A stretch of DNA of 32,233 bases, taken from the NCBI GenBank assembly GCA_016930435.1, contig JAFGGQ010000110.1:1-32233 (forward strand), written 5' to 3'. Below, one piece after another: positions 7,222-26,379 of the stretch (positions are counted from its first letter, which is position 1; each line of letters starts with the position of its first letter). The notes below the pieces were generated by a model. The model made no database searches and was not told the origin of the DNA. It saw only the letters and a list, made by a program, of their open reading frames with translations. Made by a program: the position numbers and the translations under genes. Source of the DNA: a bacterium (GTDB taxonomy: Bacteria > UBP14 > UBA6098 > JAFGQG01).

Positions 7222-10050
7222 TCATTTTAATTTATAAACGGGCAGTTGTTCCCTGATCAATTCATAGAGGGGGACTTCCTGCCGGACTTCATCAATAATC
7301 TGTAATCCGAGGCTAAGCTGTTCAAAATTGAGTTTATCCTTCAGCACCTTTGCAAACTGGACATTATCTGAGCCTGCAGTTTCTTTAATATCATTAACTA
7401 TTTTTTGAACCAAGTCAATAATTTTCTGTTCTTCCTCAGCAGATAATTTCACTTCGTTCATTGGAATGTCCCTTCCGCACTGGTTTTCCAACTCAATGAG
7501 TTTCTCGAATCGAGTTTTTTCTTTCTGGTGTGTTGCCAGTTTTTCACTTAGGCGGTCTAAAAGTTTTGAACCGCCGTTAAAAGCGAAAACTCTGGACATG
7601 GCCTCGGTCATTTGCTCCTGCATTACCTCGCAAAGTTCCTGCCCGTGAAGGGCTCCTTTCAATCGGGCCAGGGCCAGGGACATAGAAAGTACAGCGTTCA
7701 TTCCCAGGTTGATCTTTCTTTGCATCACTTTGATATTGTCATTTTGAGTAGCATCCGGTGCGATAGTTCCCCGTTGCCTTGCCAGGTCGCACTCTATTTG
7801 CAGCATTGTCCGGTCCAGCTCCATTATTTCACCCAATTCACTGACCTTTTTTCCCAGGAAGAGTGGGGATAGGATTTTACCAACATTGTCCACAGCGTTA
7901 AGGCATCCCTTGCCATTATAGCGTTTAGCCCGGTGCCAGAGTTCCGAAAGTTCCTTATCCTTCATGGATGCAATCATATCATCGGTCACTTCCTTTTTAA
8001 ACCGGTAGGTCTTGTCGGTAACCTGCAGCTTAAAGAGTTCCGGGAATTTTTTAACGATGGGCTCTCCGGCGGGGATAATGCTGTCGATGAGGTGAATAGC
8101 CTCGTCGGTACCCGCCGAGGTACCCAATGGAGTCGCCCCTTCAAAGGTAAGCAATCTTTCATAAAACGGATCGTTAGGGATACCCACTTTCAAATCGACT
8201 GCCACGGTAGGGATGCCGGCATTAGTAGATGCTTCACGTGCCACAATGCTGGTTATCGTCAATCTTTCAATGAAATTTTTGCCTAAATTTTGGATTTCAT
8301 GATCAGAGGGTTTTTCATTATCCTTACGGGCCTGCTTACGCAGTGCTTCCTGTATAACCTTGACCACTGATTCGTACTTATAAAGGCGCTCGGAATTTGC
8401 CCCCCCGCCAGCTTTAAGCCCCAATGAATTTATTGCAAGGGCTACCTGAGCCTCAAAATCCTCAATGGGGGATTTTGACCGGTGGGACACTACAGTTTCA
8501 AGCTTCTTGCCTATTGCGGTTAAAAGAGCAAGAACTCCCTCTGTTACCGAACCGATCTGATTCAACTTGATCAGCGCTGTATTGATCAATCCCTTTTCAG
8601 CCTTTTCCTCTATGGATGAATCCTTGGTGGTGATGTTATCATCTCCAATAACATGGATCTTATCACCCATGCTTTTCATTATCAACCACCAGCCTTCATC
8701 GTCATCCTCGGCAAAACCGTCCTCGATAGAAACGATTGGTAGATCATCCTCTTCAATAGCCTTATGGTAGATTTCCAATAGCTGGTCACGTGACAGTACC
8801 GTTTTATCACTGTCCCGCCAGGCCATATAGATCCCGATTCCTTCTTCACCTGTAAGCCCTTTTTCTTCCCGGTAGGCAGTTTCAGCTTCGGATGCTGCGG
8901 GGTCCAGGGCCATTGCCACATCCTTGCCGGGTATATACCCACAGTCAAGAATGGCCTGTTTCTGCATCCTCCAAAGTCTTTGCACCGGAAGAATATCACC
9001 GGGTTCTTTCCGGATAAATGGAGCCAAACCACCCTCTGTTCCCACTCCTTTTACGATACAACCTTCGGAGTTCTCGATAATCTCCTTCAGACGGGTTTGC
9101 AGATTAACGGTCATCTCCTGGGCGTCTTCATAATTCCTGGCGCTGAGTGGGATAAACATACTCTCCTGCAGGCTGATATTACTTTCGGGGAATTCCTTTT
9201 CAGTATGGCGCCCACCCATTCCACAATTCCGGAACTCCCAGGGCACCCACTTTTCATTACCATCGGAGAGAATGACCTTCTTCATGCGGGTATAGATCAT
9301 CAGTTTTTTCACCTTTTCTACCCGGTCAACCCATTTAAAAGACCCTGCCTTACGGTCTAAACCGGCTTTTTCAGATGCTTTTTTAGCTTTTGATTCCCGT
9401 TCCCGGAATTCCCTGTATTTACCGGGATCCGCCATGAGAAAATCAAGCAGGCCCACAATCCCAATACCCAGGCAGAGCCTTCCAAGATAAACCATCACAG
9501 CTGCTTTACTGATGAGTCCGACTATCAGCAGGACAATGGCTAATGGCAGGAAAACAGACGAAAGATTCCGGCTGGCGCGTGGGCCTGCTGCTGCAACAGC
9601 AAGGTTATAGGGCGCATCAGGATGGTAATCCAGACGGTTTTTTTTAACCCCGGGAAAAGCCCCGTAAGGGATGGTAATAAACATCCGAACATACCAGAAA
9701 AACTTTTTCAAAAAACCGCTCTCAATCCTGGATTGGGCATCATCCAATAACAAGCTGCACAAGGCGTTCAGTTTCACTGCTTTAAGGTAATGCCCCATCT
9801 CGTGAATGGCGATACCGGTATGAAAGGTAATATAAAGGAAAAGCAACGAAATAATGGTCTCGGGACTGGCGAACATGAACCGAAGCACATCACCCCGATT
9901 ACTTACCTGGTTGGCGATGGATAATACCGAAGATATAAAGGCCACGTGAAAAGAAACCAGAATATGATTCGCAATAACCCACCCGGTATCCAGTGCCGCA
10001 TTACCGGGCTTTGACAACCGCCCCTTTAATTTGAAAACCAGTTTAAACAT
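7222..10050 (-). CDS. Membrane M50-like peptidase domain fused to a circularly permuted enolase
   Basis: A 942-residue fusion with GAGGT before its ATG. Residues about 25-215 form a membrane domain with an HEMGH site (His83, Glu84, His87), AAAGPRASRN (153-162) and GLLDFLMADPG (200-210, Asp203), in the order of M50 site-2 proteases. A basic linker leads to an enolase TIM barrel (about 255-570). Its residues correspond to the canonical set: His282, Glu296 (QESMFIP), Glu339 (TEGG), Mg ligands Asp383 (ALDPAASE), Glu443 (SIEDGF) and Asp470 (GDDNITTK), Lys495 (ALIKLNQIG), Arg524-Ser525 (SHRS) and Lys546. The enolase N-terminal cap comes after the barrel (about 596-805): IVAREASTNAGIPTVAVDL, PLGTSAGTDEA (Ser645 as second-Mg loop Ser), GKGCLNAVDNVGKILSPL, LGMNAVLSMSLALARLK. 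A helical tail of about 137 residues follows. It plausibly interconverts 2-phosphoglycerate and PEP at the membrane. Peptidase activity is uncertain. Confidence 0.9.
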   Translation of the reverse strand: MFKLVFKLKGRLSKPGNAALDTGWVIANHILVSFHVAFISSVLSIANQVSNRGDVLRFMFASPETIISLLFLYITFHTGIAIHEMGHYLKAVKLNALCSLLLDDAQSRIESGFLKKFFWYVRMFITIPYGAFPGVKKNRLDYHPDAPYNLAVAAAGPRASRNLSSVFLPLAIVLLIVGLISKAAVMVYLGRLCLGIGIVGLLDFLMADPGKYREFRERESKAKKASEKAGLDRKAGSFKWVDRVEKVKKLMIYTRMKKVILSDGNEKWVPWEFRNCGMGGRHTEKEFPESNISLQESMFIPLSARNYEDAQEMTVNLQTRLKEIIENSEGCIVKGVGTEGGLAPFIRKEPGDILPVQRLWRMQKQAILDCGYIPGKDVAMALDPAASEAETAYREEKGLTGEEGIGIYMAWRDSDKTVLSRDQLLEIYHKAIEEDDLPIVSIEDGFAEDDDEGWWLIMKSMGDKIHVIGDDNITTKDSSIEEKAEKGLINTALIKLNQIGSVTEGVLALLTAIGKKLETVVSHRSKSPIEDFEAQVALAINSLGLKAGGGANSERLYKYESVVKVIQEALRKQARKDNEKPSDHEIQNLGKNFIERLTITSIVAREASTNAGIPTVAVDLKVGIPNDPFYERLLTFEGATPLGTSAGTDEAIHLIDSIIPAGEPIVKKFPELFKLQVTDKTYRFKKEVTDDMIASMKDKELSELWHRAKRYNGKGCLNAVDNVGKILSPLFLGKKVSELGEIMELDRTMLQIECDLARQRGTIAPDATQNDNIKVMQRKINLGMNAVLSMSLALARLKGALHGQELCEVMQEQMTEAMSRVFAFNGGSKLLDRLSEKLATHQKEKTRFEKLIELENQCGRDIPMNEVKLSAEEEQKIIDLVQKIVNDIKETAGSDNVQFAKVLKDKLNFEQLSLGLQIIDEVRQEVPLYELIREQLPVYKLK

Positions 10051-19847: not shown

Positions 19848-22007
19848 TTAAAAACTTGCTGTAACTGATATATCATAGGTTCGGGGTTCTGCCATGGTTC
19901 TTTCAACAACCAGGTAATTATACTCAAATAGGTTTTTGACCTGTGTATTGACAGTAAAATTACCCAATTTAAACTTATGGCCTACATTAAATAATTTAAC
20001 CGGAACCCGCGGATCTCCGGTAAATAAACCGACTTTCTCCAGCAAACTGACATAATAATAGCTCACGTTAAACTGTCCGAAGCTGGAATAATCGATTCCC
20101 ATGGCAAGGTTAACGGTATGTTCGGGGCGGTAGGCCAGAGGCTCTCCATTAGATAGATCCTTAGCCTCGGTATAGACATAACTAATGCTGGGGCTGAACA
20201 TCCCGTAACTGGTATGTGCTGAGAAATCTACACCCCTGATCCGTGCCTTGTCGAGATTCGCGAACTTGGCGATCCCTTCTGTGGCGTCAATGATTTGAGC
20301 CTCGATCATATCCTCATATTCGTTCCAGAAAAAGGCCAGATCAAGATAGTGATTTTTGTATATGTAGTTAACTCCAAATTCAATCGACTGAGCGGCCTCA
20401 GGATTAAGCTGGGGATTAGGCTGAACCTCAATAACCCCGCTAAGAGTAGTTTCGGTAAAGAGTTCGGCAATGGTAGGTGTACGGAATCCCATCCCCCCTG
20501 AACCACGGAAGGTTATATTATTGTTTAAATGATATACCAGCCCTAATTTAGGAGTTAATTGCCACCATTTAGACTGATTACCCACATAGGAATAATCATA
20601 TCGAACCCCACCCGTGATCACAAGGGGATGCAGGTAGGAGATCTCGTCCTGTAGAAATAGCGCGCCCCCCATTCCAAACCTCTTGTCAAAAATCTTGGAA
20701 TTCACATTTGAATAATACCCTTCAATACCAAATACAATCGAGTTGTTATCGTACTGGTAAAAGTTGAATTGTGAATCTACCCCCAACTTCCCACTGGCTG
20801 AATAATCCTTTTCTTTGCCATTCATAAAATCCTGAAACCAGCGGGTGTACATATAGTGCACTTTCATGGTGTAAAACAGGTTCTTTTCAAATAACTTCCG
20901 GTTAAATTTCAGGTAAGTATTAAACTTTCCGGAATAAACCCGGTCATCCAGCCGGCGGGGGTCCACTTCATAAGGACTGTTCTGATCAATCCACATGAAC
21001 CAGCAGCCCCGGTCCTCATAAGCAATATTATAGAAAAGGGTTAGATTGGTTTCCGGGGAATGCTCGTAGTGGAATTTACCCATAGAAGAGCCCCGGACAA
21101 AATCATCTGCCTGCTTGTAACCATCTGACATCTTTTCATTGAAGGAAAGCATCATCTGGGTTTTCCCTACCTTGCGGGAGTGCTCCAGTCCAAAATGATG
21201 GTAAAGCTGCAGTCTGTCAGTCCATTTCCATTCATCATAATAGGGTTTATCGTACATACCCAGCATCATGGTAGCGCTGTAGGAAGGCTTATAATCACCT
21301 TCTTTGGTAATGATATTGATCACCCCGCCCATTGCATTGGAGCCATAGAGCGCTGAACCAGCCGATTTGACCACTTCCACCCTCTCGATCTGCTGAATAG
21401 GCAAGCTATCCCACTTTATTTCACCGGTATCACCGGCAAGGGCGGGTACTCCATCAATTAAAAGCAGAACCCGGGTCCCGGCACCATAGGCATAGCCGCT
21501 GGAATTCCGAATGCTTACCTGGCTGTCATACATGGATACACCAGCAATGTTTTTCATCAGATCTTCCATAGTGATGGCATTATTTACATTCAGTTCATCG
21601 GCCTGAGCGACAGTTACGCTTACCGGAGACTCCTGAAGCTTTTGCTCCTTCTTGCTGGCCGTAATAATAACCGGTTCACCCTGAATACTTACTTCTTTTA
21701 AATAAATCTTTAATTCCTTCTCATCTTCCTCGTTCTTCAGGGTAGCCATCTTAATGGTACTCTCATAACCCATCATGGAGATGCGGACCTCATGCTTCCC
21801 CTTGGGAAGATTGGGGATAAAAAAGAATCCATCAAGATCGGTTGAGCCACCTTGCTTCGTGCCGGTAACTATGATATTAGCCCCGATAAGCGGCTCTCCG
21901 GTATGCTGATTGATAACCTGGCCCCGGATTACCGCTCCAAATAGAGAAGAAGTACAGATTAGTAAAAATAACATTATAACTACTAAAATATTATGATCCT
22001 TCAACAT
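19848..22007 (-). CDS. TonB-dependent outer-membrane receptor
   Basis: A 719-residue receptor with GGGAGG seven bases before its ATG. A signal peptide (to about residue 24) leads into a carboxypeptidase-D-regulatory-like domain (about 26-105; VINQHTGEPLIGANIIVTGTKQGGSTDLDGFF). A TonB-box-like EPVIITASK precedes the plug (about 120-235; MEDLMKNIAGV, VLLLIDGVPALAG, IERVEVVKSAGSALYGSNAMGGVINIITK). The remaining 480 residues are amphipathic strands with the 22-strand barrel pattern, ending in an aromatic residue (VTASF). The plug resembles CirA/BtuB-type receptors; the ligand (metal chelate, vitamin or peptide) is not evident. It lies 17 bases after a small lipoprotein gene, its probable partner in ligand capture (inference). 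Confidence 0.93.
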   Translation of the reverse strand: MLKDHNILVVIMLFLLICTSSLFGAVIRGQVINQHTGEPLIGANIIVTGTKQGGSTDLDGFFFIPNLPKGKHEVRISMMGYESTIKMATLKNEEDEKELKIYLKEVSIQGEPVIITASKKEQKLQESPVSVTVAQADELNVNNAITMEDLMKNIAGVSMYDSQVSIRNSSGYAYGAGTRVLLLIDGVPALAGDTGEIKWDSLPIQQIERVEVVKSAGSALYGSNAMGGVINIITKEGDYKPSYSATMMLGMYDKPYYDEWKWTDRLQLYHHFGLEHSRKVGKTQMMLSFNEKMSDGYKQADDFVRGSSMGKFHYEHSPETNLTLFYNIAYEDRGCWFMWIDQNSPYEVDPRRLDDRVYSGKFNTYLKFNRKLFEKNLFYTMKVHYMYTRWFQDFMNGKEKDYSASGKLGVDSQFNFYQYDNNSIVFGIEGYYSNVNSKIFDKRFGMGGALFLQDEISYLHPLVITGGVRYDYSYVGNQSKWWQLTPKLGLVYHLNNNITFRGSGGMGFRTPTIAELFTETTLSGVIEVQPNPQLNPEAAQSIEFGVNYIYKNHYLDLAFFWNEYEDMIEAQIIDATEGIAKFANLDKARIRGVDFSAHTSYGMFSPSISYVYTEAKDLSNGEPLAYRPEHTVNLAMGIDYSSFGQFNVSYYYVSLLEKVGLFTGDPRVPVKLFNVGHKFKLGNFTVNTQVKNLFEYNYLVVERTMAEPRTYDISVTASF

Positions 22008-22024: not shown

Positions 22025-22621
22025 TTAATAACTTACCGCTTTTTCCTGATTCTCAATAATTGCAGCAAGACTGTCCAGATCAACGGTCATATCAATATTT
22101 TTAGTCAACCTTTCCGGTTCAACCACAACCTGCCCATACTCTGATGAATCACCATAAGCATAATAACTGGCCATAACATATTTACCCAGATTTGCAAAAT
22201 CAGGGCTTTGCGGAACTGCCAGAAAGAAGATCCAGTTATATTCCCCAGGTTCAAGAGGGGCGATAGTATAGTCCACTTTTACTGTGCAATTCTCACAACC
22301 AACAGCGGGATAGAGAGTATCCAGGTTAAAAGGACTGAAATTATCCCCAGCGGTATCGTATAATGCAATGATATAGAATAAATTCATTTCATCCAGTGGA
22401 ACTGAATTTTTCAGCGCAGCAGGTGCAAAAAGATATCCCACCCCGGGAAAATTCAGTATATCTGTGGGTTCCAGCCAGCTTCCCGTAAAGGTAATGGTCC
22501 CGGTGATCCCGGTACTCTCATCAATTGGCCCCAAACCATGGTCAATTTTGCAATTAACAAACAAAAATATTAAAAATAAGGTTAGCGTGATTAGTATCAT
22601 GTTCTTTTTCATAATCATCAT
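22025..22621 (-). CDS. Small predicted lipoprotein, unknown function
   Basis: About 198 residues. Several ATGs are possible; I use the one at 22621, preceded by TAGGATG that overlaps the upstream stop (22612 is also plausible). The N-terminus is a lipoprotein signal (LITLTLFLIFLFVNC, lipidated Cys followed by KIDHG). The mature part is beta-rich and acidic, with CENC and a APLEPGEYNWIFFLAVPQSPDF segment that suggests an Ig-like domain. I do not recognise a family. It lies between the MEMO1-AMMECR1 lipoprotein and a TonB receptor, so it is probably an envelope accessory of that uptake system. Confidence 0.75.
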   Translation of the reverse strand: MMIMKKNMILITLTLFLIFLFVNCKIDHGLGPIDESTGITGTITFTGSWLEPTDILNFPGVGYLFAPAALKNSVPLDEMNLFYIIALYDTAGDNFSPFNLDTLYPAVGCENCTVKVDYTIAPLEPGEYNWIFFLAVPQSPDFANLGKYVMASYYAYGDSSEYGQVVVEPERLTKNIDMTVDLDSLAAIIENQEKAVSY

Positions 22622-22630
22622 TATCACATC

Positions 22631-24199
22631 CTATTTAAGTCCAAACTCATTTTCCGAAAACTTTACTACCGTATAAACATAAAGTTCCGTATCCGGGTTC
22701 TTATATGCATCTGGTGACAGACCGGCTTTCTGGCTGCACAGCTGTCGGAGGAACTGGTCCCGGTCCCAGCCGGTTTCGGTAGCAACCTGGGGCAAAAAAG
22801 TCCCTGAACTATTTCCCTTTCTGACCAGTACTCCATGTTTACCCATCTCTATCCGGCTATAATCACTTACCTTTTGCAACGGGGAGAGTACCGAGATCTC
22901 AATTTCGATATTCTCCAGCTCATCTTCGATCACCGGCCGGAAGCGGGGATCCCTTGTAGCGGCAGAGATAGCCCGGCTGATAACCGATTGGTAAAGAGGT
23001 TGTGTAGCTACCATCTCACCGATACAGCCCCGCAGGTCTCCATTTTCCTTCAAGGTGACAAAAACCGCGCCATCCTCGACCAATTTCGGGTTGTCCGGCA
23101 CCGGCTCATCCAGAATCCGCCCTTCCCGAACAAAACCATCAATACTGCGGCGTGCTAAACCCAGCAGATAAACCTTCTCCTCTTCGGTCAGGCTGTATTC
23201 AGACTCGGACTCTATACTGTCCGACTTCTGATTACCGGCGTCATCAATCTGGGCAAAGGCAACCGCGCAATAACCTACTACGCGCGCTTTTTCTCCGATA
23301 GGGACATCACCAGAGTTGGCATATTTTAAAAGAACAGCTCTTGAATTTGGCTTTGCCTGGGCTAAATTCATCAGGGTTATTACCCCACCAATCCCACAAT
23401 ACTCTACTCTCCCACTCCTTATCCCACTTATCAAAGCCTCGGTATCAAGAGCAGTGGTATATCCAATCGCCCTTCTGTCCATTTCCACCGCTACATCGTA
23501 GGGATGGTAATGGGACATATCTGAGCTTGCAATATAAATAAGTTTATACTCTTTGTCAAGCTTTTTCAGGGCATTAGTAAGGATATCGACGTGTTCAGAG
23601 CTCTGGCTTCCAAATAAAATGGGCACTATCTTTATGTTATTACCCAATATATACTGTAAAAAGGGGATCTCCGCTTCCAGAGAATGTTCCGGAATGTGAG
23701 GTTCCCTGTCAAATTTAAAAACCGGGTCAAAATCAAGCAGCTTTTGGGCTACCTCCTCGTCCACCCTGACAACTCCCAGGGGGGTTCGGAATCCACCTTC
23801 CGCCCAAACCGCTATGGAGTTACTGGCTACCCTGTGGCAGGCCCCGATCAAAACATAGGTATATTCACGGTATTTTTCTACATCACGTGCCAGCAGTTTA
23901 AAGCCATGGGCGGCCACTCCGCCGGAATATACAAATCCGGCATGAGGGGAAACTAAACCCCATAAATCGCCCTCTAAAGGTATATCCTCTGTCTCCATGA
24001 AAACGCTGTCCAGAAATGCCTTTAACGCCTCACTATCTGCGGGATACCACATGCCGGACACGGCTGGTTTTCGAATATTATCCATAGATAACCCCTCCTC
24101 GCTTTCTTTATCCGATCCTCCCTTGGTATTCCCCTTCTCGCTGCACCCCCAAAGAAGAAAGATCACCAGGATCAATGATGTTATTCTTTTAAAGTCCAT
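22631..24199 (-). CDS. MEMO1–AMMECR1 fusion (AmmeMemoRadiSam proteins B and A) with lipoprotein signal
   Basis: About 522 residues from the ATG at 24199, which has AGGATG six bases upstream; longer starts overlap the previous gene. Residues 1-19 form a lipoprotein signal (MDFKRITSLILVIFLLWGC). A MEMO1 domain follows (about 40-320) with SPHAGFVYSGGVAAHGF, GACHRV, EHSLEAEIPFLQ, SSDMSHY and EYCGIGG. These carry the three His and the Cys that line the MEMO active-site-like pocket related to extradiol dioxygenases. An AMMECR1 domain occupies the C-terminal third (FVTLKENGDLRGCIGEM, ISAATRDPRFRPV, FLPQVATETGWDRDQFL). The usual third partner, a radical SAM enzyme, is not in the window. Membrane anchoring is unusual, as family members are generally cytoplasmic. 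The gene sits in the operon of the polytopic synthase-like protein and the TonB receptor. Confidence 0.92.
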   Translation of the reverse strand: MDFKRITSLILVIFLLWGCSEKGNTKGGSDKESEEGLSMDNIRKPAVSGMWYPADSEALKAFLDSVFMETEDIPLEGDLWGLVSPHAGFVYSGGVAAHGFKLLARDVEKYREYTYVLIGACHRVASNSIAVWAEGGFRTPLGVVRVDEEVAQKLLDFDPVFKFDREPHIPEHSLEAEIPFLQYILGNNIKIVPILFGSQSSEHVDILTNALKKLDKEYKLIYIASSDMSHYHPYDVAVEMDRRAIGYTTALDTEALISGIRSGRVEYCGIGGVITLMNLAQAKPNSRAVLLKYANSGDVPIGEKARVVGYCAVAFAQIDDAGNQKSDSIESESEYSLTEEEKVYLLGLARRSIDGFVREGRILDEPVPDNPKLVEDGAVFVTLKENGDLRGCIGEMVATQPLYQSVISRAISAATRDPRFRPVIEDELENIEIEISVLSPLQKVSDYSRIEMGKHGVLVRKGNSSGTFLPQVATETGWDRDQFLRQLCSQKAGLSPDAYKNPDTELYVYTVVKFSENEFGLK

Positions 24200-24210
24200 A
24201 ATCATCCTAT

Positions 24211-26379
24211 TTAAATCCATATCGGCATAGCCAATATCAAAATGATCAGCCAGAGTATCAGCGAGCCCGTAATTCCCATTAAAGGGATGAAGATTATACC
24301 GGTTAATACCGCGCCCATTGCAGCGCCCAGGCTATCCAGCCCAAATACTATGCCGCCGGCATTAACAGTGGAGGGGAACCGGCTTTCGAACCAACGCACA
24401 CCCAGGGGGAATAACATCCCGGTCAAGGTGCCGGCAATCAGTTGTAAAGCCATAAAACATAACGTCCCACTGATATAACCCAACCGCTGATACAATGACG
24501 TCCACTTAAAGAGAAAGAGCATTATCAATACAAATATAATCCATAAAAGGGACCATAACCGAAAGAAGATAAACCGCTCTTTATTCCTGGTGAGATTTGC
24601 CCCGGTAACTAATCCCAGCATAAATACACTGGTTAAAACGCCCACTAACCAGTATAGATAGCCAAACAGTGCCTGGAATAAGTAAAGTACAATTAACTCA
24701 GTAAGTATCCCTCCTAATCCACCAACAATAATTAATACAATAGTCCCTAAATTTTTGTTAAATATATATCTATTTAATAGTTTGACAAGTAAAAAAACGG
24801 TCAAAAAGAATATCAGCCAGTGTTCCAGCCGGAGGAGTTTCAGTTTTTTCAATAAAACTCCGCCACCGGTTAATTTAAACCATTCCTGAAGACCAATATA
24901 ATAGGCAATTGGAGAGAAATCGCGGTTGACTATCAACTTCTCCCTGGCATCTTTGATCAACATGCTCTCCAGGTTATTCTGCCGGAAAGGGTCGAGGAAA
25001 TAAGCCAATACCTCGCGGTTTAAATAGCGGTTTCTAATACCCCTTTCCTCCAGCCGGGCATTAAGGAGATCAGGGTCCAGCTCCAGGGGACTTCGAGGTG
25101 AAGCAAAAAACAAAAGGCCATTGTCCATTTGAACCAGCCGGACATGTATAAATACATTCTGAAGGGCCTCCCTGACTGAATTCACCATAACCTGCTCCTC
25201 ACTGGAAATATAATTTACTCCTACATTCAGTTGAAAGGCAAAAATACCATCGTAATCCAGTCTCCCTTTTATTTCCTGGAAAAATTCCAGGGTATAGAAG
25301 CGGTTCATAAAACCCGATTGGGGATTAGGCAACAGGAGCATAATCACCTCGAAGTTCCGATTACTTTTTTTGATCCAGAAACGCGCATCGGAATACTCTA
25401 CATCCACACGTGGCTCGTTCATCGCCCGTTCTACTTTCGGGAAAAAAGGACGTGTAACCTCAAGGATTCGGGGATCTACTTCCAGGTAGGTTATACTCCG
25501 GGGATGATGCTGAAGGGCTACACCTACAGCTCCCTCGTAGATTCCACCTACGAGCAATACCCTTTCAGGCCCCGGATGAGCCAGCAAACATAGATTAACC
25601 AATGATTCGAGATAGACCGTATCTGCAGTCGCGGCTACCAGACTCCCATTTTCAAATAGGTACTGCTCACCCTGGCGGGATAACACCAATATCTTGCCAT
25701 ACCGGGATTCATAGGACTGGCTCTCATAACCTTTCCAATAGAGTTTATCCATTACGCCGGAAAGTGATTGAGCATTCATAGCAAGCAACATCAAAAGAGA
25801 GGTTAATATTACTGAAGTTATCTTTACCGGGGTCCGGGCGGTAAAGATCCAGATTATCCCCAGGAAAGTCCCGATCATAATGAAGCTATGTACCGGCGGG
25901 ATACGGGCTACCATTATCAGGCTTAGGATACCCCCCAGTACTGCGCCCAGCGCTTCAAAAATATAAACTGTTGATGCTTTTAAACCCGAACTTCGTGCTT
26001 TCCTGCAGAGTTGCCCGAAAAAAGTACCCGCTAATATACCGAAAGGCACCAAAGCCAGCAATAATAATAGGATTATCCGCCAGAAATCCCATAACCGACC
26101 GGGATGAACCTGTAGTATTGATCCCAATAGCTTTATCCAGAAGAATGAAAAGGGAAGGGAAAACGCCAAAGCCACCTGGACTAATCCCAAATTCCGAAAC
26201 CGGGAAAAAATTCCGCTGCCGGCAGCATATAGCACCAACCAGAAGAAGAAGAACAAAGCTACCACCAGCTCATTAGAGCGAAGCAGAGCGATACTCTCCC
26301 GCAGCAGAAAAACCTGGCTGTAAAGACTGGCAAATCCCAGAGACCAGCTCCACAGTTTAATGCGGCTTCGGTCGTTCAT
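24211..26379 (-). CDS. Polytopic membrane protein with central spermidine-synthase-like domain
   Basis: 722 residues in three parts. About six hydrophobic helices occupy residues 1-215. A spermidine/spermine-synthase-like Rossmann domain follows (about 220-510). A second set of about seven helices runs from 525 to 722. The whole resembles the fused MFS/spermidine synthase family. In the Rossmann part the SAM-binding loop reads LLVGGIYEGAVGVALQHHP rather than GGGDGG, YLEVDPRILE and YSDARFWI are kept, and the gate-keeping Asp motif is replaced by LLLPNPQSGFMNRFYT, so polyamine synthesis is doubtful. A perfect-consensus promoter lies just upstream, making this the first gene of the five-gene run down to rpmE. 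Substrate unknown. Confidence 0.87.
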   Translation of the reverse strand: MNDRSRIKLWSWSLGFASLYSQVFLLRESIALLRSNELVVALFFFFWLVLYAAGSGIFSRFRNLGLVQVALAFSLPFSFFWIKLLGSILQVHPGRLWDFWRIILLLLLALVPFGILAGTFFGQLCRKARSSGLKASTVYIFEALGAVLGGILSLIMVARIPPVHSFIMIGTFLGIIWIFTARTPVKITSVILTSLLMLLAMNAQSLSGVMDKLYWKGYESQSYESRYGKILVLSRQGEQYLFENGSLVAATADTVYLESLVNLCLLAHPGPERVLLVGGIYEGAVGVALQHHPRSITYLEVDPRILEVTRPFFPKVERAMNEPRVDVEYSDARFWIKKSNRNFEVIMLLLPNPQSGFMNRFYTLEFFQEIKGRLDYDGIFAFQLNVGVNYISSEEQVMVNSVREALQNVFIHVRLVQMDNGLLFFASPRSPLELDPDLLNARLEERGIRNRYLNREVLAYFLDPFRQNNLESMLIKDAREKLIVNRDFSPIAYYIGLQEWFKLTGGGVLLKKLKLLRLEHWLIFFLTVFLLVKLLNRYIFNKNLGTIVLIIVGGLGGILTELIVLYLFQALFGYLYWLVGVLTSVFMLGLVTGANLTRNKERFIFFRLWSLLWIIFVLIMLFLFKWTSLYQRLGYISGTLCFMALQLIAGTLTGMLFPLGVRWFESRFPSTVNAGGIVFGLDSLGAAMGAVLTGIIFIPLMGITGSLILWLIILILAMPIWI

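Follow-up and report, generated by a model that had tools for sequence, protein, structure and literature searches.

A lipobox-bearing MEMO–AMMECR1 fusion as the probable AmmeMemo half of an exported AmmeMemoRadiSam system, with a putative second start

The MEMO–AMMECR1 fusion described here is, on balance, best read as the AmmeMemo half (components A and B) of an exported AmmeMemoRadiSam system, acting in a short envelope pathway and encoded by a gene that would be translated from two starts. Conservation of MEMO1 and AMMECR1 extends from archaea to humans, and both are tied to disease; to our knowledge, they are still without a known reaction, and we know of no activity for any member of AmmeMemoRadiSam. 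With a version confined to the envelope, the possible substrates narrow to the contents of that compartment, and there are two further partner proteins to consider. Should the exported radical SAM enzyme work outside, the assumption that such enzymes are confined to the cytoplasm would be broken, and the source of SAM and electrons would come into question. The dual-start gene, in turn, would let the supply of two compartments from a single bacterial gene be tested directly. The families themselves are known. As far as our searches go, neither the dual start nor an exported form serving two compartments has been described: the phrase 'periplasmic radical SAM' retrieved no paper, and no description of an exported AmmeMemo system was found in the literature searched, most subscription journals lying outside its coverage.

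The fusion lies on the minus strand of the window, the whole 32,233-nt stretch of DNA analysed, which belongs to the genome referred to here as G000; 17 genomes of its phylum were compared. The longest possible open reading frame covers 22631-24220 (minus strand, 529 aa). Met8, at 24199, has the best Shine-Dalgarno pairing among the upstream starts (dG -4.0, versus -1.5 for Met1) and is also the start called in the first-pass annotation. The features of the gene are as follows.

22631..24199, minus strand: MEMO–AMMECR1 fusion, lipoprotein form, starting at Met8 (open reading frame, domain matches, AF2 model)
24146..24199, minus strand: signal peptide of the fusion, MDFKRITSLILVIFLLWG (sequence; leader conserved across the phylum)
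24143..24154, minus strand: lipobox LWGC, with the Cys codon at 24143-24145 (sequence)
23264..24067, minus strand: MEMO domain, with ligand codons for H93 at 23942-23944, H129 at 23834-23836 and C275 at 23396-23398 (Pfam, alignment)
22658..23161, minus strand: AMMECR1 domain with the LRGCIG motif (Pfam)

Both domains are matched by Pfam (Memo, E 6.9e-57, residues 52-319; AMMECR1, E 5.2e-54, residues 355-521) and exceed the NCBIfam cut-offs (AmmeMemoSam_B TIGR04336, 254.4 bits against 26; AmmeMemoSam_A TIGR04335, 180 bits against 99). The leader, MDFKRITSLILVIFLLWGC, is composed of an n-region, an h-region and a Cys, and its LLWGC, in which the Cys closes the h-region, qualifies as a lipobox. 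The leader and both domain matches thus bear out the earlier description of fused MEMO and AMMECR1 domains behind the lipobox LLWGC. An AF2 model (mean pLDDT 90.1) was confident for both domains and placed a disordered linker of low pLDDT at residues 28-41. To judge from its sequence, the fusion is very probably exported.

An active copy of the fusion, as opposed to the divergent copy described below, was present in 13 of the 17 phylum genomes, and all 13 retain the leader (the G003 copy, split over contig pieces C34 and C136, was counted once). The leader ends in Gly-Cys in 10 copies and in Phe-Cys in two (G001, G002); the Cys is lost in one (G005), although the hydrophobic stretch is retained there. 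This conservation argues that the leader is not due to chance. Among named bacteria, a contig scan turned up 30 related loci (Omnitrophota, Cloacimonadota, Poribacteria, Patescibacteria groups and others), and nearly all begin with a signal sequence or anchor, for example those in Omnitrophota, Cloacimonadota and Poribacteria; L083, from a Bacteroidales MAG, encodes a plain cytoplasmic fusion. A mis-called start as the origin of the leader was ruled out, as the leader is retained in other phyla and the Omnitrophota and Cloacimonadota sequences have no Met at the MEMO boundary. In a Poribacteria MAG (L086:6913-9304), a MEMO–AMMECR1 lipoprotein adjoins a stand-alone MEMO gene.

A divergent second exported MEMO–AMMECR1 copy occurs in 15 of the 17 phylum genomes, and the His, His, Cys triad is absent from every divergent window-phylum copy in the aligned set. 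The second copy of the own genome (G000:C1, L002/L044) was considered as a cytoplasmic partner and rejected, having a signal sequence of its own and having lost all MEMO ligands. At L044:8808-10322 and its equivalents, the exported protein with the ruined MEMO pocket stands in a surface-protein cluster. Downstream of it, the loci examined encode an M23 peptidase (cluster 2) and, as clusters 1 and 3, two large secreted proteins containing Ig/fn3 and T9SS-tail-like domains. The L044-type copy is thus a predicted pseudoenzyme within this cluster.

In the active fusion, H93, H129 and C275 align with H49, H81 and C244 of human MEMO1, and the pocket residues D234/H237 are also conserved, in agreement with the first reading of the pocket as kept. 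Human MEMO1 is described as cytosolic and as binding Fe and Cu via H49, H81 and C244 in the accessible part of PMC11081632. The closest solved folds to the fusion model were archaeal AMMECR1 proteins and human MEMO1, followed by aminophenol and DOPA extradiol dioxygenases. The fusion shares with human MEMO1 (PDB 3bcz, 7kq8, 7l5c) the fold (TM-score 0.81-0.83 by target) and the metal ligands, but it is only ~21% identical, bacterial, fused to AMMECR1 and exported. The AMMECR1 proteins PH0010, MM0484 and ST0229 (1vaj, 1zq7, 1wsc) were 34-41% identical across the domain in the fold match and were also matched by sequence; unlike the fusion, the solved archaeal chains are single domains of ~200-230 residues without a MEMO part.

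The neighbours named at first pass, a polytopic membrane protein, a lipoprotein-like protein and a TonB receptor, are all present.

24211..26379, minus strand: P0002, seven TM segments, a SpeE-like domain (~204-520, predicted periplasmic) and seven further TM segments (Pfam, hydropathy)
22025..22627, minus strand: P0003, small lipoprotein-like protein without a Pfam match, beside the fusion only in G000 and G011
19848..22007, minus strand: P0004, TonB-dependent receptor, beside the fusion only in G000 and G011

P0002 lies upstream of the fusion, overlaps its open reading frame by 10 nt, and combines about 13 to 14 TM segments with a Spermine_synth domain (PF01564, passing the Pfam threshold). 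The positive-inside rule places its N-terminus inside and the SpeE-like domain outside. Among the 11 homologues shown, five to eight TM segments precede the domain, and five proteins with seven show a clear positive-inside asymmetry (for example, 12 versus 4 Lys/Arg); P0002 itself was counted with six in this set because its weak first helix fell under the threshold, and with seven in a separate analysis. Its AF2 model was of low confidence (mean pLDDT 54, 3 sequences), so seven helices on each side are only consistent with the hydropathy count. The SpeE-like domain resembles fused MFS/spermidine synthase proteins and polyamine aminopropyltransferases (NF037959, PF01564). However, P0002 misses all NCBIfam cut-offs, including those of the curated SpeE models (TIGR00417, 79 bits against 249.55; NF037959, 29 bits against 40), and its domain is inserted between seven and seven TM segments and predicted to be periplasmic. 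An LPNP sequence sits at what we take to be the position of the SpeE catalytic Asp motif.

P0002-like genes were found in 14 of the 17 phylum genomes, and SpeE-like homologues are also present in the four genomes without an active fusion. Such a gene adjoins the fusion in G000 and G011, lies ~7 kb downstream in G013, G014 and G016, and is found between the exported radical SAM gene and the fusion in Cloacimonadota L061. Among relatives with a flank of at least 4 kb, a SpeE-like gene lay within 5 kb of 10/19 exported and 0/20 cytoplasmic radical SAM copies (p 1.5e-4). Here L085 and L103, exported by rule, were reassigned as cytoplasmic for mis-set starts (the rule-based count was 10/20 versus 0/19), L211 and L213, with a SpeE-like gene adjacent, were excluded for short flanks, and L215-L218, four further Tat-type copies missed by the motif, were not counted. 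DsbD_2 (CcdA-type) proteins were encoded near five exported and no cytoplasmic radical SAM copies, and Tat-bearing DUF362 proteins near two and none, respectively; in L201 (G028) the exported radical SAM, SpeE-like, DsbD_2 and fusion genes all occur together. None of the 12 exported radical SAM genes of the window phylum lay near the fusion or had a SpeE-like, DsbD_2 or DUF362 neighbour; this, like the SpeE-like homologues in genomes without an active fusion, counts against the proposed module. Recurrence with the same membrane protein had been set beforehand as a test of a functional module, and it was observed both beside the fusion (G000, G011, L061) and beside the exported radical SAM gene (10/19). 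The SpeE-like protein is therefore likely to be part of the module. As a separate observation, the fusion in L033, L035 and L042 (G013, G016 and G014) is followed by genes for a UbiA prenyltransferase, a TPR protein and a DUF3857/transglutaminase protein (Pfam for L033 only), a possible link to isoprenoids.

All three AmmeMemoRadiSam families (TIGR04335/04336/04337) score over cut-off in the own genome. Unlike the usual system, A and B are fused and exported behind a lipobox, the radical SAM component occurs in an exported and a cytoplasmic form, neither adjoining the fusion, and there is a SpeE-like membrane partner. G000 has two TIGR04337 copies over cut-off, at 413.6 and 318.2 bits. One copy, C130, has a long N-terminal extension that contains a hydrophobic segment (signal or anchor); the other, C139, is unextended and begins directly before the first Cys. 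Both are on contigs other than that of the fusion, so the three AmmeMemoRadiSam genes are not clustered in G000; they are clustered in L061, L067-L069, L073, L076 and L201. TIGR04337 was present in 15 of the 17 phylum genomes, and the 13 genomes with an active fusion included 12 with an extended copy, 11 with an unextended copy and 10 with both. Of the 29 genomes reached via the named loci, 26 carry the family, no TIGR04337 match being found in G021, G034 and G045. These are Parcubacteria/Falkowbacteria-labelled MAGs with MEMO/AMMECR1 (L064, L077 and L088, respectively); in L064 and L077 the fusion is lipoprotein-like and might work without the radical SAM protein, as in eukaryotes.

Exported radical SAM copies have 40-89 residues including a hydrophobic stretch before the first Cys, compared with 14-25 residues in most cytoplasmic copies. 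CxxxCxxC is conserved in 37/37 exported copies, and 53 conserved columns are common to exported and cytoplasmic copies. A tree of 71 copies united all 37 exported sequences in one clade of 41 rows that includes four signal-less members (support 88/95), and the 12 exported copies of the window phylum formed one branch inside it (99/95). G019, G020 and G038 have an exported fusion, yet their exported-clade radical SAM protein is without a signal. A draw of 117 genomes from Omnitrophota, the phylum of G044, yielded TIGR04337 in 91; among the 29 best-scoring loci, not a fair sample, 12 were classed as exported by rule, with L253 doubtful (probably a mis-set start). Searched against the PDB, the exported radical SAM protein of the own genome gave no match at 0.01.

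The extended radical SAM proteins of relatives bear Tat-like signals in 12 genomes (10 RR, 1 RK, 1 RG) and Sec-type signals otherwise; G028, which bears both types, was counted as Tat. TatC was found in 0/17 phylum genomes and 19/29 relatives, with 11/14 control genomes positive. Hence the twin-arginine motif and TatC occur together in 12 relatives and not in the TatC-less window phylum. TatC accompanied 12/12 Tat-type genomes versus 3/20 genomes with only non-Tat exported copies (p 2e-6), and among relatives alone 12/12 versus 3/8 (p 0.0036), the genomes not being independent in either comparison. In L204 (G027) and L205 (G042), tatC is the gene adjoining the Tat-exported radical SAM gene. 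As with Tat-exported Fe-S proteins, the radical SAM protein of these relatives is an Fe-S enzyme with a twin-arginine signal; it differs in being a radical SAM enzyme. We know of no SAM, strong reductant or Fe-S assembly in the periplasm, and Sec-type export of an Fe-S enzyme, hard to explain, counts against the export reading. Nevertheless, the radical SAM protein is quite probably exported, a point that the first-pass annotation had not foreseen. In the accessible part of PMC10924467, 'radical SAM' occurs once only, for a neighbouring gene and not for a Tat substrate.

A further point unforeseen at first pass was a putative second start within the fusion gene.

24092..24100, minus strand: internal Shine-Dalgarno-like run, GAGGAGGGG, 6 nt 5' of the internal ATG (dG -12.3)
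24083..24085, minus strand: internal ATG (Met46), putative start of a cytoplasmic form, 22631-24085 (13/13 conservation, pairing energy)

In the AF2 model, Met46 sits where the low-pLDDT linker ends. All 13 active copies carry an in-frame Met at the MEMO boundary behind a G-rich Shine-Dalgarno-like run, with anti-Shine-Dalgarno pairing of -8.4 to -13.1 kcal/mol (mean -11.8). By comparison, 131 other internal ATGs of the active copies and L060 had a mean dG of -2.85, and the best upstream start a mean of -6.6 over 12 genomes, as the G007 and G003 copies are cut at contig ends. Synonymous-codon shuffles reached the internal-start pairing with p 0.013-0.204 per genome (combined p 4.5e-5, the genomes being related), showing that part of the signal stems from the K/E/G-rich linker. 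As a control, 75 other signal-bearing, non-polytopic proteins from the same loci were inspected; 27 of them had an in-frame ATG within the equivalent region, and one had a pairing of -8 or lower. A conserved internal start with a strong Shine-Dalgarno sequence in 13/13 active copies versus 1/75 control genes implies a second, cytoplasmic product. The genes for exported radical SAM proteins, whose cytoplasmic twin is encoded separately, show no such conserved internal start.

L060 (G017), which falls outside both the window clade and Omnitrophota in the MEMO tree, shows the same arrangement (dG -15.4). Neither the 13 active-copy genomes nor the rest of the phylum yielded an intact MEMO gene separate from the fusion, whereas one is present in 17/29 relatives (in G022 as two contig-end fragments, counted once), and 14 of these genes form a clade of their own (support 100/100). 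Among genomes with an exported fusion, the internal start and a separate MEMO gene were mutually exclusive: 0/14 with the internal start had a separate MEMO gene versus 17/27 others (p 1e-4, with genomes not independent), the latter being the 29 relatives minus G017, which has the internal start, and G040, whose fusion is cytoplasmic. Counter-cases to a reading of one gene for two compartments are G004 (98% complete), in which the internal start is present and a cytoplasmic radical SAM protein was not found, and G030 and G033, which have a cytoplasmic radical SAM protein but neither a separate MEMO gene nor the internal start. The conserved internal start, the lack of a separate MEMO gene in the phylum and the mutual exclusion suggest one gene for two compartments, and two products from the fusion gene are probable on these sequence patterns. 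Most likely, the gene of this phylum would supply the exported radical SAM enzyme with a lipoprotein and the cytoplasmic enzyme with a form that stays in the cytoplasm, whereas two MEMO genes are used in most relatives. Relatives in which the protein starts after the signal sequence had earlier been named as a refutation of export; a second start indeed lies exactly there, but the leader is conserved as well.

Each of the two starts might also be the only one in use. The internal Shine-Dalgarno sequence is the stronger in most genomes (means -11.8 versus -6.6; in the window -12.3 versus -4.0), and the lipobox Cys is lost in G005, as would be expected if the phylum used the internal start alone and made an ordinary AmmeMemo protein of the cytoplasm, the upstream extension going unused. 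This is quite improbable, however, given that the leaders are in frame, hydrophobic and Cys-ended in 12/13 copies, that relatives without the internal Met have only an exported form, and that the exported radical SAM protein is retained in 12/13 genomes. Conversely, the protein might be a lipoprotein only, with the internal ATG and its GAGG run arising as a by-product of a K/E/G-rich tether. The modest per-genome p values of the synonymous shuffles fit this explanation, as does G004, which has the site and no detected cytoplasmic radical SAM protein. We nevertheless consider it unlikely in view of the 13/13 versus 1/75 contrast with control genes, the recurrence of the arrangement in L060/G017, separate on the tree, and the lack of a separate cytoplasmic MEMO gene in the active-copy genomes.

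The conserved leader, the exported radical SAM protein and the recurring SpeE-like membrane partner together favour the envelope version of AmmeMemoRadiSam suggested at first pass. We infer that the lipoprotein, the exported radical SAM enzyme and the SpeE-like domain would face the periplasm and act together as a short pathway. The radical SAM enzyme would make a radical product in the periplasm, its clusters pre-loaded where it travels by Tat, and the Fe(II)-His/His/Cys site of MEMO together with AMMECR1 would process this product. The SpeE-like domain would supply or consume a SAM-type substrate, and the DsbD_2/CcdA-type membrane protein, alongside in some relatives, might serve to import electrons. 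A modified small molecule or lipid of the envelope is the probable product; naming an isoprenoid or quinone would be guesswork. Memo contexts in the PCAD-Memo superfamily (Burroughs and colleagues, 2019) are reportedly linked to nucleotide bases and isoprenoids. That superfamily study is cited as Burroughs et al. 2019 in the accessible part of PMC7159879. The specific chemistry as proposed is rather doubtful. The more far-reaching reading, with radical SAM chemistry outside the cytoplasmic membrane, a full envelope line beside its cytoplasmic twin, a periplasmic SAM-type pool and, in this phylum, one gene with two starts, is tentative.

A simpler arrangement would have the exported-clade radical SAM protein merely anchored, with the enzyme on the cytoplasmic side and no radical chemistry outside. 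It would agree with SAM not being known in the periplasm, and several N-terminal segments in the window phylum are without a clear cleavage site. However, the positive charge lies on the N-terminal side, the Tat motifs track TatC, the Omnitrophota and Cloacimonadota proteins have cleavable-looking Sec signals, and the partner proteins are exported, all of which makes simple anchoring unlikely. The fusion could instead be an envelope metal chaperone for reduced copper or iron supplied via the TonB receptor. Its MEMO metal ligands are intact, the same residues bind Fe and Cu in human MEMO1 (PMC11081632, accessible part), and the receptor is encoded two genes downstream. But P0003 and P0004 follow the fusion in only 2/13 active-copy genomes (the L040 fusion ORF was dropped by the gene-calling rule in this comparison), and the recurring partners, a radical SAM enzyme and a SpeE-like membrane protein, point to enzymology, so that a chaperone is very unlikely. 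A metal-delivery operon with the TonB receptor was rejected on the same 2/13 count, and the earlier proposal that the receptor delivers iron or copper rests on nothing recurring. Being beside the fusion only in G000 and G011, P0004 is probably not part of the module.

Elsewhere in the window, 7222-10050 (minus strand) encodes a 942 aa protein with a permuted enolase order, Enolase_C (272-574) preceding Enolase_N (694-808). The own genome also has a normal enolase (C145); a 944 aa open frame in G011 and a 642 aa frame in G013 are further occurrences of the long form.
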